Below, one piece after another: positions 3,646-20,617 of a DNA stretch of 64,000 nucleotides. Numbering within the stretch: position 1 is the stretch's first letter; each line of letters opens with the position of its first letter. Under the pieces are notes generated by a model that saw nothing but the letters and a program-made list of their open reading frames with translations, made no database searches and was not told where the DNA came from. Location: NCBI RefSeq assembly GCF_002214385.1, contig NZ_CP014855.1, positions 496,001-560,000 on the forward strand, in the 5' to 3' direction. The position numbers and the translations under genes were made by a program. Source of the DNA: Thermococcus gorgonarius (GTDB lineage Archaea; Methanobacteriota_B; Thermococci; Thermococcales; Thermococcaceae).

Positions 3646-4242
3646 ATGGACATCATTAAGCTCAGAGAGATGCTGGAGGAGGAGCTCTCGAAGCCAGAAC
3701 TAGTCAGGATCGATGAATCTTTTTACGTTGATTTCGACAGCCTGATAAAGGCCCTTCACCTAGGGGCCGAGAGCTCCCGGGAGAGGGGAGAAAACTTAGA
3801 AGAGGCCATATACCTTGAGCAGCTCAAGATAGCCGAGGGGCTGATGAGGGAAATAATACGGTTGAGACTTCACAAGCTCGTTGATGCGGTCTTTTCTGGA
3901 AGTTTTAGCCCCGGTGAGCTGGTTGAGGAGGAAAGGAAACTATTCCTGATTCTGAAGGCTTTTGTGGAAAGGAAGGACTTTGGAAAAGGTGTCCAGCCCC
4001 AGAAACAGGTGGAAGAAACGGAGAAAAAAGCTGATCTGGGCTCGGAAATAGTCAGTAAGGAAAGCTCTCAGAAAACAAGAATTCGTACTGCTTACATAGT
4101 CTCTGCTGATTTACCGTCAATTCTGGACGAAAATCTCAGAGAACACGGGCCAGTAACCGCTGGGGACCTCGTGGTGCTTCCCGAGAGCATTGGCGAGGTT
4201 CTCGTTAAAAGAGGCGTCGCTAGAAGAGTCAGCATTCTTTGA
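3646..4242 (+). CDS. gins51: GINS complex subunit Gins51 (Gins15)
   Basis: A 198-aa subunit of the archaeal GINS complex, which joins MCM helicase and the GAN/Cdc45-like nuclease at the fork. The alpha-helical A domain comes first (about residues 1-115, with the basic RLRLHKLVDAVFSG helix). A charged, low-complexity linker follows, then a small beta B domain (about 150-198, ending VKRGVARRVSIL). The A-then-B order is characteristic of the Gins51 type. The start is the ATG at 3646, with GGTGG six bases upstream; a TTG two codons earlier is less likely. It lies 32 nt after PCNA, as in other Thermococcales. Confidence 0.9.
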   Translation: MDIIKLREMLEEELSKPELVRIDESFYVDFDSLIKALHLGAESSRERGENLEEAIYLEQLKIAEGLMREIIRLRLHKLVDAVFSGSFSPGELVEEERKLFLILKAFVERKDFGKGVQPQKQVEETEKKADLGSEIVSKESSQKTRIRTAYIVSADLPSILDENLREHGPVTAGDLVVLPESIGEVLVKRGVARRVSIL

Positions 4243-4273
4243 AACATAAAAACCTGAGAAAAGAAAGAAAGGT

Positions 4274-7200
4274 TCAGCCGAACCTCTCCAGGAACATCTG
4301 AAGTATCTTGTTGGCCTTCTTCTCAAAGATGTAGGCCAGCTTCATGTAGTACGCTGCCCTGTTGTGGTACCTGCTCGCGAGGTTGAGGATCATGGTTCTG
4401 ATGGGCTCGGGAATTGCTGACTGGACAAGTGCGGTGAGGTTCTCGTAAAGCTGGGTCTCCTCGTTGTATAGGTTCTCCCAGTACTGGTACTTAGACATCA
4501 CGTCTATCTGGCTAAGGGTGAACGTCTTCTCGACGTCCTGGTAGTTCGGGTTTATGACCCCGATCCTGAGGGTGTCATGAGGTCCGCGCGGTGTGTAGTA
4601 GAACTCCAGTATTCCGTCGTTGGTGTAATAGATCTGGTCGTTGACTATGACCTTGCTCTCTCCGATTACCGGTGTCATGTTCTGGGCATCGAGGAGGAGC
4701 ACCTTGATCTTGGTTGGCTCACCGGTAACTACCTGTCCTTCTGCGTAGGCCATCACGACCATCTTTGGCAGTCCTGCCTGGACTACAACCGGGGCGTAGT
4801 CGAGTACTTCGCCGGTTGAGCTGTCCTTGACGCCGATGACACCGAGGTATGTTCCGCTCTCGTTGACATTGATCTTAACTGATGCATACGTGATACTGTT
4901 GTTGACCACTGGGGCAGTGCTCGGGCTTACCTTGATGTTGCCGTTGTCTCCGAGGATCTGGTAGTAGAAGATGTAGTGGATCGGGTCGTAGCCAACGGTA
5001 TCGTAGCCGTAAACTGCTATGAGGTAGTATCCTGGCTCTGGCATGAACTTCTCGAAGACCTCGTCGCTGGTCGGGCCGATCTGGTCGGTGTAGACTGTAT
5101 AGTTGGTGAAGTTCATGAGGTCTTCATAGGTCGGGAAGTAGTACACGTAGAGGTCGAGGTCGGCGTTCGGGTCTTCTGGCTGGGTTATGCCGACGCGGAA
5201 GTAGTAGTCGCTTTCTGTAATGGGTATGGCACCTATGACATCGAAGTCGTCCTGGCTGACGTTCCTTATCATGCCATAGACCTGGTCGAGTCTGCCCATA
5301 CCGAGTCCGTAGAGTTCTGCCTGGAAGGTTCCGTAGTTGGTGTTCTTAACCGTGATTGCAGAGTGAATAATTCCCGGAGAGTCCATGTCGGTTATTATCT
5401 TCTCGGGCTGTATGGTCACTCCAACGGTCTCGACGCTTATGGTGTAGTGGGACTCGTTGTAGCCAGTTCTGGGCTTTGTGAAGGTGCAGGTGTAGGCGGT
5501 TATCTCCCAGGTGCCGGGTTCTGGGTTCTTGATAACCCAGGTGTACTCCGGCAGGCCAGGACCAACGAAGTAGTAACCTGGGACGTATTCTGCTACAACT
5601 GCACCTTCGGGTCTCGCTATCATGAGGGTTGTCCTGCCCATGGGAGTTCCGTTCTCGTCGAGCGGTACCCTGAGGGTAACGCGGAGCTCCTTGGTTCCAG
5701 GAGCGACCTGGTAGAAGTAGTGCTTAGCAACACCTGGCAGAGCGGTGTCACTGAGTGAAGCCTTGTTCTGTCCGTTCATGTTCATTGGCAGGTCGACTAT
5801 GACCGGGATGAATCCGTCGATGTAGCTGGTCTCGGGGTCATCGATGTACACGAAGCCAACGTAGATGTGGCCGGGCTGGAGCTTGGAGTAGTCTATCTGA
5901 ATTGAGAAGCTTCCGAAGGTTTCTCCTCCGGCTATTACAGTGTCAACGTTGGGAATGATCCAATCGTCGCTTGTGCTTATGTGGTAGGCTTTTTCGACCG
6001 CAACTGGTGATAATCCAAGGCCGTTCTCGTATTCCATCGGGTAGAAGTAGAGCGGAACTCCTGCCGGGAATTCGTTCCTGATGTAGACACCGCGGTAGAG
6101 GTAAGGCATGTCGTAGAGACCGTAGAAGTAGCTGTTGTACTCGATGTAGTCCGGGCTTATGGGTATCTCCTTCTCCTCGAGGTCGTTCCTGAAGCCTGTG
6201 AAGGTGGTTCCGCCGTAAATGTAGGTGGTCTTCTCCGCGCTGAGGTTCTGGAGGACGGCTATTGCACTGTCAACATGTATCAGTCCGAAGCCCTGGTCGA
6301 CTGGAGTGGCCTCCTGGACTGGAACTGCACTCATCTCAAGGGCGCGCTTTATCATTATCGGGTTGTAGGTCAGGTTGTGCTGCTTGGCGTAGCTTATGAG
6401 GAGCGCCACAGCACCGCTGACGTGGGGAGTTGCCATTGAGGTTCCGTCCCATATTCCATAATATTCGTACGGATCCTGGTCAAGTACGGTGTACCAGAGC
6501 GGGAGACTTGAGAATATCCTTTCACCCGGTGCTATGACGTCCGGGTCGAGAAGGCCGTCCATCCTCGGTCCCCTGCTAGAGAAGCTTGCCACAGTGTCGG
6601 CAACGCCGTCAGCACCGTAGAAGATGCTCCAGCGCTGGCTTGAGCGGAACGCACCGACTGTTATGACGAGGTCGCTGTCACCGGGGCATGGACCGTGTTA
6701 GTGGTTGGCCCCTCGTTTCCAGCGGCGATGGCGAAGGTGACGCCGAACAGGTCTGTTATCAGGTTGGCGTAGAATATTTCTGGGTTCTCCAGACCGTCGT
6801 TTATCTCCCCGCCTCCACCGAGGGACATGCTTATGACGTCGGCACCGTTTAGGGCGGCGTAGAACATTCCATTAATTATCCAGCTCGTCCTTCCAAAGCC
6901 CTGTTCACCTGGGAGAACCTTGACCTCTATGAGCTGGGCGTTTGGTGCCATTCCGTAGGTTCCGTTGAAGACCGGGTCAGTTGGAAGGCCCACCCCGGCC
7001 ACTGTACCGCTGACGTGGGTTCCGTGGCCGTGGGCGTCCCACCTGAACATTGCGTAGCTGATTCCCTCTCCGCAGGGTATCGTAAAGAGCGGGTTCTCAT
7101 CGTTGCTCATGTCGCCTATGTGAACCCTGGCCAGGGCTATGTTCACCTTGGTGGAGTTCACGGTAACGTAGTCCCCGGTGATGTCGTAGAGGGTCATCGG

Positions 7201-8167
7201 CTGGTCGTCGGTGAAGTCGTTGTTGAGGTTGAGGTCTATGTAAGCAACGAAGTTGCCGCTCTGGTTGACAACGAGAACCGGGTAAACGTCGCTGAGGTCG
7301 CCGAAGAGCCCGAGCTCATAGGGATCGTTGGGTGTGCCGTTGAAGTTGTTGAGGTCAAAGTACCTCTCCGGGAGGAGGCCGAGGTAGTACTCGCTTCCGG
7401 TTATGTTGCCAACATAGTATGCAGTCATGTTATACTCCGTCACGCTTGGGTGGCCATAGTACATAGCATAAGCGCCCCAGTAAATCGGAACTGTCATGTT
7501 GACAACGATGGTGCCGTTTACAGTCTGGGTGGCGACGTAGTAGAGCTGGGCTATTCCCTCGTCGCTGGCGTCGTAGATGTCGATTATCTTCCTCCTGCCG
7601 TCGAAGGTAATCTGGAGGAACGGGTGGCCGACGTCAACGCCGGTGTCGAGGACGGCAACTGTAACGTTGTCACCAAAGACCCCGTAGTTCATCCATGCGT
7701 CGTAGGCGCGGGTGGTGAAGATGCTGAGGAACATGTCTGGCATCTGCGGGGCTTCCTTCGGTGGTAGAGCCTCGGGCTCCTTGACAGGCTCCGAAAGCTT
7801 GACCATCTCGTCCTTCCAGATTCCGATTATTCCGTTGATCTCCTTGAGCTTTGCCAGCTTCTCCCTGGGTATCGTGGCAACTATGAACTGGTACTCGGGC
7901 TTGCTTATAGGATCAATCTTGCCAATCTTGGCTATCTCGTTGTAAACTTCCATGGCCTTGTCCCTTGAGGGGGCAATGATCAGCCTAAGCTCCTTTTTCG
8001 TCCCCCTTGAGGAACTTGTCGATCTGCTTGTCAACTGGCATTATCTTGTTGCTTGGTTCGTTGATTTGAGTGCTCATCCCTGCAGAAACTATCGGCACTG
8101 TGGCCACTGGAACAACGGCCAGGGCCATAATTAAAACAATTAAGACGCTCAGGGTCTTTCTGTTCAT
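4274..8167 (-). pseudogene. Pyrolysin-like secreted subtilase, broken by two compensating frameshifts
   Basis: If two one-base errors are corrected, this is a 1297-aa secreted S8 serine protease. A signal peptide (MNRKTLSVLIVLIMALAV) comes first, then an I9-type propeptide and a catalytic domain with Asp in AVLDTGVDVGHP, His in DAHGHGTHVSG, oxyanion Asn in AIAAGNEGP and Ser in WDGTSMATPHVSG. A long beta-rich C-terminal region typical of pyrolysin/stetterlysin ends in a helical tail. Break one: an extra A in the A-run at 7994-7998 changes KGDEKELRLI into a stop at 7985. Break two: a missing G near 6680-6683 (GCCCCGGTGAC where GCCCCGGGTGAC restores AGNEGP...APGDSDLVITVGA). The overall length stays divisible by three. 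It is either a sequencing artefact or a recent pseudogene. The start is 8167; a TATA-like TTTTAATAA lies at about 8219-8227. Confidence 0.85.
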
Positions 8168-8538
8168 GACTAAGGACACTTCCATGCACTTGTGTGCAAT
8201 AGTGTATCTGTAGTGGGATTATTAAAACTTTTTTCCATGGAGAAATAGGGGCCAAAGAGCGGGTTTAGATTTGCCGATGGACTCTCAATTTAGGGCTCTT
8301 TGTGAAGTATTGTGTTCATTGAAAATCTAAAAAGGGCAATATAGGACGTCAACAACCTTGAGGATATCTTGGATACACTAATGCATAGAAAAGAGAATGT
8401 TGGCGTTAGAATTCCCGAAATTTTCTCCGGATTAGTCAGATGGAGCTTAAAAAGCTTTTCTCTTCCGACTTTTCAGTTAATTTTAAATAGGGTTTCCATA
8501 TATCACCTCCGGTAAGTACCTTAAATGGAGGGATAGCC
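8168..8538. other. Intergenic region between divergent subtilase and pps
   Basis: A 371-bp AT-rich gap. It holds the subtilase promoter on the minus strand (TATA-like element near 8219-8227) and the pps promoter near 8481-8517 on the plus strand. Between about 8230 and 8440 I see no convincing ORF, RNA gene or repeat. A short AAGCTT...AAGCTT pair at about 8447-8458 is the only local symmetry. Confidence 0.6.
8481..8517 (+). promoter_or_regulatory. pps promoter: TATA box and imperfect TGM-like element
   Basis: TTTTAAATA at 8481-8489 is a good archaeal TATA box. TATCAC-CTCCG-GTAAGT at 8501-8517 follows. Its left half matches the Thermococcales glycolytic motif TATCACn5GTGATA exactly, the right half only partly. 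It lies downstream of the TATA box at the expected transcription start, the position used for repression of glycolytic genes by TrmBL1/Tgr. The weak right half keeps confidence low. Confidence 0.4.
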
Positions 8539-17562: not shown

Positions 17563-17576
17563 ATATGGGTGATACC

Positions 17577-18041
17577 ATGGAGTACCTCGACATAAAAGTC
17601 CTTGATGAAGATGGAAAGGAAAAGCCCCTGAGAGACCTCGTCTTTGGCAGGTGGACGGTTCTCTACTTCTACCCAAAGGACAACACGCCTGGCTGCACCA
17701 CTGAGGCCAAGGAATTCACAGAACTGCTTCCGGAGTTCGAAAAGCTTGGCGTTCAGGTTATCGGCGTTTCCCGGGATTCGCCAAAGAGCCATCAGAGGTT
17801 CAAGGAGAAGCACGGCCTCAAAGTAAAGTTGATCAGCGATCCCAACGCCGAGCTCCACAGGGCCCTTGGAGCGTGGGGCAAGAAAAAGAGCTACGGAAGG
17901 GAGTATGAGGGAGCGATAAGGAGCACCTTCATTCTGAACCCCGAGGGAGAAATCGTGTGGAAGAAGATAAAGGTTCGGGCCAAGGGACACGCCGCCCAGG
18001 TGCTTGAGGAGATCAAAAAGCTAATAGGAACGGAAAACTAA
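17577..18041 (+). CDS. bcp: Bcp/PrxQ-type peroxiredoxin
   Basis: A 154-aa thiol peroxidase that reduces hydrogen and organic peroxides. It has a thioredoxin fold with the peroxidatic cysteine C40 in NTPGCTTEAKEF. There is no second cysteine anywhere, so it must act as a 1-Cys enzyme or use an external thiol for resolution. The start at 17577 has GGGTGATACC upstream; the ATG at 17565 would be 4 codons longer and nearly leaderless. It is co-transcribed with the rubrerythrin-like gene 17 nt downstream. The promoter carries the DtxR-like operator, which links peroxide removal to iron status. Confidence 0.93.
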   Translation: MEYLDIKVLDEDGKEKPLRDLVFGRWTVLYFYPKDNTPGCTTEAKEFTELLPEFEKLGVQVIGVSRDSPKSHQRFKEKHGLKVKLISDPNAELHRALGAWGKKKSYGREYEGAIRSTFILNPEGEIVWKKIKVRAKGHAAQVLEEIKKLIGTEN

Positions 18042-18058: not shown

Positions 18059-18538
18059 ATGAAGGAGCTTGAGGCTTTAGCCCTCGCCCTTGAAGTTGAA
18101 AAGGCCGAGCTTAAGTTCTACATTAAGCTTGCGAAAAAAGCTAAGGACGAGAGGGCGAAGAAGATGTTCCTCTTCCTCGCTGGAGAAGAGGCCGAGCACT
18201 GGGACATCTTTGAGGAGAAATTCGTTGAGGCGCTGGTCGAAAAGTGTGAGCTCCCAGCGGTGGACAAGGAGCTCCTAGAAAAGCTGGTTGTTCAGGTTGA
18301 TGAAGAAAACCTCAGTGAGGTCGACGCGGTTAAGATCGGCATGGAGCAGGAAAAGCTGACCTGGGAGTTCTACGAGAGGGCCGCTAAGGAAGCGGAGCAC
18401 GAGAGCGTCAAGAGAGTTTTTGAGGAGCTGGCGAAGATTGAGAAGGCCCACTACGAACTGCTTAAGGCGCAGTACGACTCGGTGATGAAGACAGGCATAT
18501 GGATGGACTACCAGGACTTCAGCCTTGAGGTTGATTGA
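18059..18538 (+). CDS. Rubrerythrin-like ferritin family protein (no rubredoxin domain)
   Basis: A 159-aa di-iron four-helix-bundle protein with two internal repeats. Each repeat has a carboxylate helix and an ExxH helix: EVEKAELKFY with GEEAEHWDIF, and EQEKLTWEFYERA with IEKAHYELL. The tail (GIWMDYQDFSLEVD) resembles that of rubrerythrins, but the C-terminal rubredoxin domain is missing, as in erythrin-type proteins. Its probable role is peroxide reduction or iron handling. The start at 18059 follows GGTGGGTGATAAC. It is the second gene of the bcp operon and converges on the Fur/PerR gene. Confidence 0.88.
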   Translation: MKELEALALALEVEKAELKFYIKLAKKAKDERAKKMFLFLAGEEAEHWDIFEEKFVEALVEKCELPAVDKELLEKLVVQVDEENLSEVDAVKIGMEQEKLTWEFYERAAKEAEHESVKRVFEELAKIEKAHYELLKAQYDSVMKTGIWMDYQDFSLEVD

Positions 18539-18543
18539 GGCTT

Positions 18544-18921
18544 TTATTCAACCAGCACGTTGACGAGCTTGACGTTCTTCCCTATCTTTTGCTTTATTGC
18601 GTTGATTATCTCGGGATCGTTAACATCGATGATTTTTTCTCCCATTATCAGGTTTAGGTGAGGTTTGGTGTTGACCTCTACTCTGGTCTCGCCTTCGAGG
18701 GAGAAGAGCTCTATGAGGCCAAGCTCCTTAAGGGTTATCAGATTTGAGTATAGGGTTGAGAAGCTCATAGTTGGAAACTCCTTTCTTATTTCCTCAAGGA
18801 GCTCGGTAAGCGATGGATGAGATGGCCCAAATTCCTCCAGAACTTCAATGAGCCTGAGCCTCTGGGGCGTGAGCTTGTAGCCACTCTCTTTGAGCCTTTC
18901 TATGGCCTTTTCTCTCCACAT
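18544..18921 (-). CDS. Fur/PerR family transcriptional regulator
   Basis: A 125-aa regulator. The N-terminal winged helix (RLKESGYKLTPQRLRLIEVL, FSTLYSNLITLKELGLI) is classic Fur superfamily. The dimerisation domain is unusual: it has no cysteine at all, so the structural CxxC zinc site is absent, and the usual HHHH/CxxC stretch is reduced to NTKPHLNLIMGEKI. The His in SHPSLTELL matches a PerR metal-ligand position. A TATA box CTTATAAAG (18950-18942) places transcription start at about 18921, so the ATG there is probably leaderless. It is divergent from the Dps-like gene, with PerR-like palindromes between. I infer an autoregulated peroxide/metal sensor. Confidence 0.88.
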   Translation of the reverse strand: MWREKAIERLKESGYKLTPQRLRLIEVLEEFGPSHPSLTELLEEIRKEFPTMSFSTLYSNLITLKELGLIELFSLEGETRVEVNTKPHLNLIMGEKIIDVNDPEIINAIKQKIGKNVKLVNVLVE

Positions 18922-18959
18922 GTGTTTCAATTCGCGGGGGACTTTATAAGCCTTCCTAA

Positions 18960-18976
18960 TTAGAAATAATTTCTAA
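18960..18976. promoter_or_regulatory. PerR/Fur-like operator, box 1
   Basis: A perfect inverted repeat TTAGAAAT-A-ATTTCTAA (8-bp arms, 1-nt spacer). It resembles PerR boxes (TTATAATnATTATAA type) with slightly longer arms. It lies upstream of the fur TATA box (18942-18950) on one side and of the Dps-like TATA box (about 18985-18993) on the other, and is the obvious binding site for the adjacent Fur-family protein. Confidence 0.7.
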
Positions 18977-19000
18977 ATCGAAAAGTTTATTAAGTAGAGG

Positions 19001-19025: not shown

Positions 19026-19577
19026 ATGTCGGAACACAACAGAAGGTTGGTTGAAAAGGCAGGAATAGACGTGGAAAAGCTCCTGGACATGCTGCTGAAG
19101 GCGGCCGCTGCGGAGTTTACGACCTATTACTACTACACTGTTCTGAGGAACCACGCCGCAGGCTTGGAAGGCGAAACGATAAAGGAAATCGTCGAGGATG
19201 CGCGCCTTGAGGACAGGAACCACTTTGAGGCCCTCGTGCCGAGGATTTACGAGCTCGGCGGAGAGCTCCCGAGGGACATCGTGGAATTCTCGAAGATGGC
19301 CTGGTGCCGCGACGCTTATCTGCCGGAGGAGCCCACTGTAGAGAACATCCTTAAGGTCCTCCTCGAAGCGGAGCGCTGTGCGGTTGGTGTCTACACGGAG
19401 ATATGCAATTACACGATGGGCAAAGACCCGAGGACCTACGACTTGGCCCTGGCAATCCTCCACGAGGAGATAGAGCACGAAGCTTGGTTCGAGGAGCTTT
19501 TGACCGGCAAGCCAAGCGGCCACTTCAGGCGGAGCAAACCCGGAGAGAGCCCCTTTGTCTCGAAGTTCCTGAGGTGA
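19026..19577 (+). CDS. Dps-like protein (DPSL, thioferritin)
   Basis: A 183-aa ferritin-superfamily protein of the archaeal Dps-like group, which forms 12-subunit cages that use peroxide to oxidise and store iron. The ligand helices contain [39 protein letters not shown] and [12 protein letters not shown]. The cysteine pair C94 (AWCRDAYLP) and C118 (EAERCAVG) next to the metal site is the thioferritin signature; C127 is extra. The start at 19026 has GGTGAAATCC upstream. It is divergent from the Fur/PerR gene with two palindromes between, and followed by an EncFtn-type gene with its own promoter. It probably protects DNA and proteins from peroxide and ferrous iron. Confidence 0.88.
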
Positions 19578-19625: not shown

Positions 19626-19934
19626 ATGCTCGCCAAATACCCCTTTGAGCTCCCAAAGGACAGGCCCTTGACCAAGACCGAGATAGCGCAGGCCCTCCGC
19701 TGGGCCATCGAGGCGGAGCTTGATGCGATAAACATCTACGAGCAACTTGCCGCTGGAATAGAGGACGAGAGGATAAGGCACATCTTCCTTGATGTAGCCA
19801 ACGAGGAGAAGGAGCACTTTGGTGAGTTCCTCGCGGCTCTCTTCGAGGTTGATGAAGAACTCGCGAAATACATGAAGGAAGGCTTCGAGGAAGTTGAGGA
19901 GGAGACGGGGATAAAGGTGAACTTTCTGAAGTAA
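19626..19934 (+). CDS. Encapsulated-ferritin-type protein (EncFtn), no encapsulin shell attached
   Basis: A 102-aa two-helix ferritin-like protein. It has E31 in AELDAINIYEQ and E61/H64 in NEEKEHFGEF, at the spacing of encapsulated ferritins, whose dimers build the ferroxidase centre. In Pyrococcus the same domain is the N-terminal part of a fused encapsulin (HK97-fold shell) protein. Here the reading frame stops after the ferritin part (TGIKVNFLK) and the next gene, on the other strand, is unrelated, so no shell is encoded nearby. The start at 19626 follows GGTGATACT. A TATA-like GGTTTATC near 19586-19593 gives it its own promoter after the Dps-like gene. Confidence 0.85.
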   Translation: MLAKYPFELPKDRPLTKTEIAQALRWAIEAELDAINIYEQLAAGIEDERIRHIFLDVANEEKEHFGEFLAALFEVDEELAKYMKEGFEEVEEETGIKVNFLK

Positions 19935-19941
19935 AGACCCG

Positions 19942-20319
19942 TCATTCCAGACTAATCCCGTTTTCTTCTTCTGAATTTTTGAGTTCCCTTATTTCAAAAA
20001 CCTTCAGCGGGACTTTTTTTAGGGCCTTTCCAACGACGGCCTTCGCTATTCTCTCGGCGTGCTCTATGCTCTGAGCGTTGAAGACCTTGAGGGTCAGGTA
20101 TATACCAACGAGACCAACGTTGCCTATTACGAAGGCGCTCTCAAAGTGGGCTCCGCAGACGGGACACTGGGAGTAACCCAGCTCGACCCTAACGAAGTCG
20201 AGGTTTTCCCTGTTGAGAGCCTTTGTAACTTTACTTACCGCCACGTTTATGGCATCTTCGTTCGTTTCGACGTCTTTAACTATTATCGGTGCTTCAAGAA
20301 CCACCACGTAGTCCCCCAT
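19942..20319 (-). CDS. UPF0212 / DUF555 family protein
   Basis: A 125-aa conserved archaeal protein of unknown function. The N-terminus MGDYVVVLEAPIIVKDVET, the central zinc-knuckle-like CPVCGAHFESAFV and the C-terminal ESIEHAERIAK-type helix are characteristic of this family, which is shared with methanogens and Archaeoglobus. The start is the ATG at 20319 with GGTGAGAG upstream; longer in-frame starts would run into the preceding gene. It lies 10 nt downstream of a DUF357 gene, forming a two-gene operon of conserved archaeal proteins. Confidence 0.8.
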   Translation of the reverse strand: MGDYVVVLEAPIIVKDVETNEDAINVAVSKVTKALNRENLDFVRVELGYSQCPVCGAHFESAFVIGNVGLVGIYLTLKVFNAQSIEHAERIAKAVVGKALKKVPLKVFEIRELKNSEEENGISLE

Positions 20320-20329
20320 ATCTCTCACC

Positions 20330-20617
20330 TCAGCCAAAGGCAAAGAGCCTGTCGTCTTCTCCCTTAAAAACTCCAAGTCTCACTCCGGCGTCTATAAAGC
20401 CGTGGGCATAGTTCAGCGCCGCGAACGCTGTCACGTAGTCGCCTTTCTCGTAGTAGTATTTGGCATCCTCAAAATAGCTTCTCGCCATGGTTAAGAAATC
20501 CCTGGCAACAACGCCCAGGAGGCTCTTCTCGTGAACCACCACTTCGAGCCTTTTAAGAGCCTCGCCTGTTATTTTAAAATACCTCTGGAGCCTCTCCTCT
20601 GAGATCTCTCGCTCCAC
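20330..20617 (-). CDS. DUF357 family protein
   Basis: A 95-aa all-helical protein of the archaeal DUF357 family, function unknown. The family pattern is the helical hairpin [41 protein letters not shown], quoted here in separated blocks: [27 protein letters not shown] and DAGVRLGVF. It resembles small scaffold or HEPN-like helical bundles, but no active-site residues are evident. It is the first gene of the operon with UPF0212, and divergent from a HAD phosphatase gene. Confidence 0.8.

Follow-up and report, generated by a model that had tools for sequence, protein, structure and literature searches.

According to the literature, encapsulated ferritins (EncFtn) must sit in an encapsulin for iron storage (PMC5012862). 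A 64,000-nucleotide stretch of the Thermococcus gorgonarius genome, hereafter called the window, encodes an EncFtn domain that stands alone, which raises the question of what such a protein does. The original prediction for this locus left two options, a free ferritin whose shell had been lost or a ferritin loaded into a shell encoded elsewhere, and drew attention to an adjacent Dps-like cage.

The EncFtn gene and its surroundings

The EncFtn gene (Table 1) begins with an ATG codon that is preceded by GGTGAT in the window sequence. Its product scores 28.7 bits against the Pfam profile EncFtn-like (PF22277; gathering cut-off 27) and carries the iron site by which membership in this family was tested, E31 and E61-X-X-H64. 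Residues 6–97 align to the P. furiosus EncFtn 5n5e (54% identity; E 5.4e-26), the N-terminal 99 residues of the fused shell protein 2e0z (345 aa) match the window protein, and so does the profile of 3k6c (NE0167) with E 2e-5. The predicted 102-aa frame, its ferroxidase residues and its correspondence to the N-terminal ferritin part of the fused Pyrococcus encapsulin are thus confirmed.

Table 1. Features of the EncFtn locus in window coordinates
Feature	Position	Strand	Evidence and remarks
PrxQ-type peroxiredoxin	17565..18041	+	Pfam AhpC-TSA 7.4e-37; NCBIfam PrxQ 1.6e-40, below cut-off
Rubrerythrin-like ferritin-like protein	18059..18538	+	Pfam Rubrerythrin 3.9e-15; EncFtn neighbour kept across family loci
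Fur-family (PerR-like) regulator, divergent from DPSL	18544..18930	-	Pfam FUR 3.8e-22; best NCBIfam match PerR, below cut-off
Palindrome AATTAGAAATAATTTCTAAAT (also given as TTAGAAATAATTTCTAA), between Fur-family gene and DPSL	18958..18978	.	Candidate operator
DPSL (thioferritin) mini-ferritin cage	19026..19577	+	Pfam Ferritin 1.4e-21; E 1.3e-111 to P. furiosus DPSL 7stw
Lone EncFtn domain protein	19626..19934	+	102 aa; ferroxidase residues E31, E61, H64
Convergent DUF555 gene, outside the system	19942..20376	-	Pfam; occupies the place that a shell domain would have

Seven residues follow G95 in the window protein, and the tail measures 5–7 residues across the window's group, which leaves no room for a targeting peptide on a flexible tail; this hallmark of the FLP-TP type is lacking from the window EncFtn. 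The last residues, IKVNFL, loosely match a tag pattern; because this match is absent from the protein's 69 group members, we have taken it as chance. At 102 aa, the tail-less protein agrees with the description of s-FLPs (~95–100 aa, no tail, no targeting peptide), and judging from its sequence it fits this class, being neither a fusion-FLP nor a tagged cargo. s-FLPs are mainly bacterial and their encapsulation is uncertain (PMC11202242). Like the window protein, the s-FLP NE0167 of Nitrosomonas europaea (3k6c) is EncFtn-like, of ~95–100 aa, and has no recognised tag. However, NE0167 is bacterial with a shell status marked as unknown (PMC11202242), whereas the set described here is archaeal, stems mostly from shell-less genomes and has a fused orthologue at the same locus. 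The R. rubrum EncFtn (5da5) and M. xanthus EncB/EncC (7s5c, 7s8t) belong to the EncFtn-like family as well and share the EXXH site with the window protein, but their disordered tail carries a tag and a shell gene accompanies them, and the window protein has neither.

Across all 84 compared Thermococcaceae proteins, lone and fused, there is no variation at E31, Y38, E60, E61, H64, G66 and E67, and over 936 pairs of the window's group dN/dS has a median of 0.08. The invariant iron site together with this ratio indicates that the lone protein is maintained by purifying selection. Position 63 separates the groups: 70/70 window-type proteins have E, whereas 10/10 fused family members and 4/4 lone proteins of the fused type have A. 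An A or T at this position is typical of archaeal fusion FLPs (PMC11202242), whereas the E before H in the window EncFtn is the bacterial motif state.

On the 3′ side of the gene the surroundings are as predicted, since no HK97-like sequence follows the frame and the 3′ end of the convergent DUF555 gene begins seven bases past the EncFtn stop. DPSL lies upstream on the common strand with a gap of 49 bases, and its match to 7stw establishes that the adjacent Dps-like cage is real. DPSL/thioferritin (7stw, 9cz0) shares superfamily and stress context with EncFtn; unlike EncFtn, it forms a closed cage of 12 subunits and has a di-iron centre to itself. Palindromes comparable to that between the Fur-family gene and DPSL occur upstream of DPSL in many family loci, although the window palindrome alone is not above shuffles, and we regard it as a candidate PerR/Fur operator of presumed function. 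Elsewhere in the window, a Peptidase_S8 (subtilase) gene at 4200–8180 (minus strand) is apparently split across frames. Its PF00082 halves lie in overlapping frames (6664–8040 and 4277–6697) and its signal-peptide start is seemingly in another frame, which appears to be a frame disruption or an assembly error.

Search for a shell in the genome and in the family

The T. gorgonarius assembly consists of one 1.67-Mb contig and is 99.98% complete. A search of this genome with PF04454, the profile for the classical, family-1 encapsulin shell, gave no match, while three control genomes matched, and hence no capsid gene came to light that would speak against the predicted lack of a shell. Nor does a shell domain stand in the EncFtn's own frame, as it would in a fusion-FLP; the frame stops after 102 aa. 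A sequencing error or broken frame, through which a shell might have been overlooked, was rejected because a stop at about 99–103 aa recurs in many independently sequenced genomes. The profile PF19307 was silent on this genome, but as it was silent on its controls, too, this absence carries little weight. Here and in the following, shell absences are absences in profile searches.

We surveyed 94 Thermococcaceae genomes, 74 of which are good (≥90% complete, ≤5% contaminated). The EncFtn domain occurs in 87/94 genomes and in every good one. A shell (PF04454) was detected in ten family genomes (9/74 good ones), always in-frame behind EncFtn, with a total length of 345–346 aa. The remaining 77 of the 87 genomes have the lone form, and 65 of the 74 good genomes are shell-less. 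Since 30 shell-less genomes are single-contig assemblies, the absence of the shell is not a gap effect. Downstream of the lone genes no shell remnants were detected beyond one chance-level match (E 0.29), with ~30 loci covered by a 1.5-kb flank only. The lone domain is therefore the rule in Thermococcaceae, and the shell looks optional. In one draft genome (G062; L053/L119) the lone EncFtn frame is without its first residues and start codon, likely owing to a frameshift. We found no published account of a lone EncFtn in Thermococcales, in a literature search that was incomplete, and an earlier description is possible.

Beyond the family, lone forms of 93–95 aa are present in three other families of the same class. 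PF04454 matched in 1/21 genomes of these families, and the matching sequence looks phage-like. Lone forms were also found in Archaeoglobi, DHVE2, Bathyarchaeota, Lokiarchaeota, DPANN archaea and some candidate-phylum bacteria, and fused forms in Archaeoglobi and Desulfurococcales. Among 50 scanned genomes outside the family, a shell was detected in 4/4 with fused genes and in 3/3 bacterial ones with a VGSL-type tail; the remaining 43 encode a lone, tag-less domain, and PF04454 matched in one of them. As the genomes outside the family are mostly drafts, single absences are weak. In view of the widespread lone archaeal relatives and the shell-less majority of good family genomes, the idea that the lone EncFtn is an anomaly has to be abandoned.

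Presence and absence of the shell segment

Two genome pairs show where lone and fused genes diverge. G075 (fused) and G079 (lone) are collinear with 86–92% DNA identity; two segments are exclusive to G075, a 1.1-kb cassette of Fur and DPSL genes before the EncFtn domain and a ~790-bp shell segment after it, and the lone frame of G079 departs from the alignment at about codon 101. The second pair, of G047 (fused) with G036 (lone, window type), is likewise collinear on either side of the shell segment, which G036 lacks. These collinear pairs show the shell to be a segment that is either present or absent at a single locus, its junction being the domain/linker boundary, where comparison with fused homologues places the break. 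In the fused family members the locus is equivalent, and Fur-family and DPSL genes lie upstream, as in the window. The P. furiosus fused EncFtn-encapsulin (PFC_05175; 5n5e, 2e0z) has an orthologous N-terminal EncFtn domain and shares the iron-site residues with the window protein, but behind that domain it has a short linker and then an HK97-type T=3 shell, whereas the window frame stops at the domain end in a shell-less genome.

In the domain tree a single clade (65 distinct rows, support 100/98) holds all window-type lone sequences. Outside it, at several positions, lie the fused sequences, with four lone 'fused-type' proteins scattered among them, and the best tree nests the window's clade within fused sequences. 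At least five changes are forced on the domain tree and six on the species tree, for which a single gene, PEP synthase, served as the background. It follows from these changes that the shell came or went, or that the gene moved between lineages, several times. If all shell-linked rows are held apart from the window's clade, the tree is poorer by 7.3 log units, yet the test does not reject it (AU p = 0.298), and we therefore do not claim a shell loss in the window's lineage; the deep relatives are also lone. Of the options in the original prediction, a protein that works free is better supported by the lack of a PF04454 match, whereas the loss of a shell is not established. Near-identical fused EncFtn domains occur across two genera, in G047 (L093), G001 (L091) and G068 (L089), and PEP synthase groups G047 with lone-type species; as far as can be told from the sequences, the fused allele of these three genomes probably moved horizontally.

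Proposed function of the lone protein

In vitro, EncFtn outside a shell has ferroxidase activity but is unable to mineralise iron by itself; when the free R. rubrum protein oxidises iron there is no storage, the iron precipitates and the protein aggregates (PMC5012862). EncFtn homologues are known to form an open ring of ten subunits, in which the iron site lies at the dimer interface (PMC5012862, PMC11202242). Considering the invariant iron site, the dN/dS of 0.08, the dispensability of DPSL and the ability of free R. rubrum EncFtn to oxidise without storing, a free detoxifying ferroxidase is the best reading. We consider it probable that the window EncFtn, encoded in an oxidative-stress locus, acts as a free, ring-forming ferroxidase and not as a shell-loaded iron store. 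Two chains would most likely pair to build a symmetric di-iron site from E31, E61 and H64, and by analogy with the homologues the pairs would assemble into the open ring. In the cytosol this ring is expected to oxidise Fe(II) with O2 or H2O2, as a presumably regulated part of the stress locus with its peroxiredoxin, rubrerythrin-like protein, Fur-family regulator and DPSL. Homologues and context suggest that it would serve to withdraw reactive iron and oxidant rather than to store mineral; iron storage in this genome may be possible through the adjacent DPSL and a classical ferritin elsewhere (at 1,485,489). In the minority of relatives with a C-terminal HK97-type shell domain, the ring would become the filling of an iron-storing capsid.

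Could EncFtn instead be the cargo of a shell encoded elsewhere, for instance of the family-4 'A-domain' proteins (PF08967) or of an unrecognised HK97-type protein? Tail-less short FLPs are theoretically encapsulable (PMC11202242), and the genome has two PF08967 genes, of a kind reported for all sequenced Pyrococcus and Thermococcus (PMC8346489); their presence speaks to some extent against a free protein. These genes, however, are ~406 kb and 1.06 Mb away from EncFtn, one adjoining a DeoC-type aldolase and neither a ferritin. Being remote and without a ferritin link, the A-domain proteins were rejected as the shell of EncFtn, and with PF04454 absent from the genome and no tail of tag length on EncFtn, a shell from elsewhere is quite improbable. 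That a fused encapsulin is decaying and the lone gene is what remains of it would agree with the nested position of the window's clade in the best tree and with the four lone fused-type genes among the fused ones. Yet the dN/dS value contradicts decay, the active site is invariant, EncFtn is kept in every good genome and shell remnants were not detected, which renders this explanation highly improbable.

A partnership in which the open ring oxidises iron and passes it to the adjacent DPSL cage is suggested by the proximity of the two genes on one strand. In addition, the fused form is accompanied by DPSL in 8/9 good genomes versus 28/65 shell-less ones (Fisher p 0.013, uncorrected for kinship), and in tree-independent pairs the association of shell and DPSL is one-directional, 4–5 to 0, but not significant (p 0.06–0.25). 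On the other hand, DPSL mineralises iron unaided by means of its own di-iron centre (PMC12532284), and it is missing from half of the good family genomes, including 37/65 shell-less ones. This distribution rules out an obligate partnership with the Dps-like cage, which the original prediction had brought into play, and we regard DPSL as an unlikely partner. Ferritin-like two-helix domains are functionally diverse, and E63, which replaces the A63 of the fused members, is a surface site by the iron centre; EncFtn might accordingly have been recruited to a task other than iron oxidation, for example structural metal binding or oxidant sensing. Every member retains all iron-site residues, however, and such a recruitment appears rather unlikely.

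Eight good genomes (G005, G006, G007, G009, G011, G033, G090 and G093) have the lone EncFtn but neither DPSL nor a PF00210 match (threshold E 0.001). Their having the protein speaks for a free function, but with no recognised cage to receive the iron such a ferroxidase is hard to reconcile with the in vitro precipitation and aggregation seen for free R. rubrum EncFtn. As a tentative generalisation, free EncFtn may be a core detoxifier of iron or peroxide in Thermococcaceae and many other archaea, working cage-free even without a recognised ferritin, DPSL or shell, and the shell an optional segment that was repeatedly gained or lost at one junction and tends to travel with the Fur–DPSL cassette. 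If the lone form is universal in an archaeal family and the shell exceptional, the free protein has to be useful by itself, and encapsulins would then be additions to an iron enzyme that already existed. Where close Thermococcaceae relatives differ in nothing but the shell and the Fur–DPSL cassette, they represent a natural experiment on the contribution of the shell.

Two further features were noted in individual family loci. In L090 (G077) and L092 (G080), DPSL is seemingly truncated at its start beside a fused EncFtn-shell gene; in G077 only residues 49–183 match, and G080 has no full-length match. A long perfect or near-perfect palindrome, TTATTTAGTTTGAAAACTAAATAA, is located 38–39 bases upstream of the EncFtn start in L083, L084 and L086, and it is kept in these three close genomes with or without the Fur–DPSL cassette and the shell.
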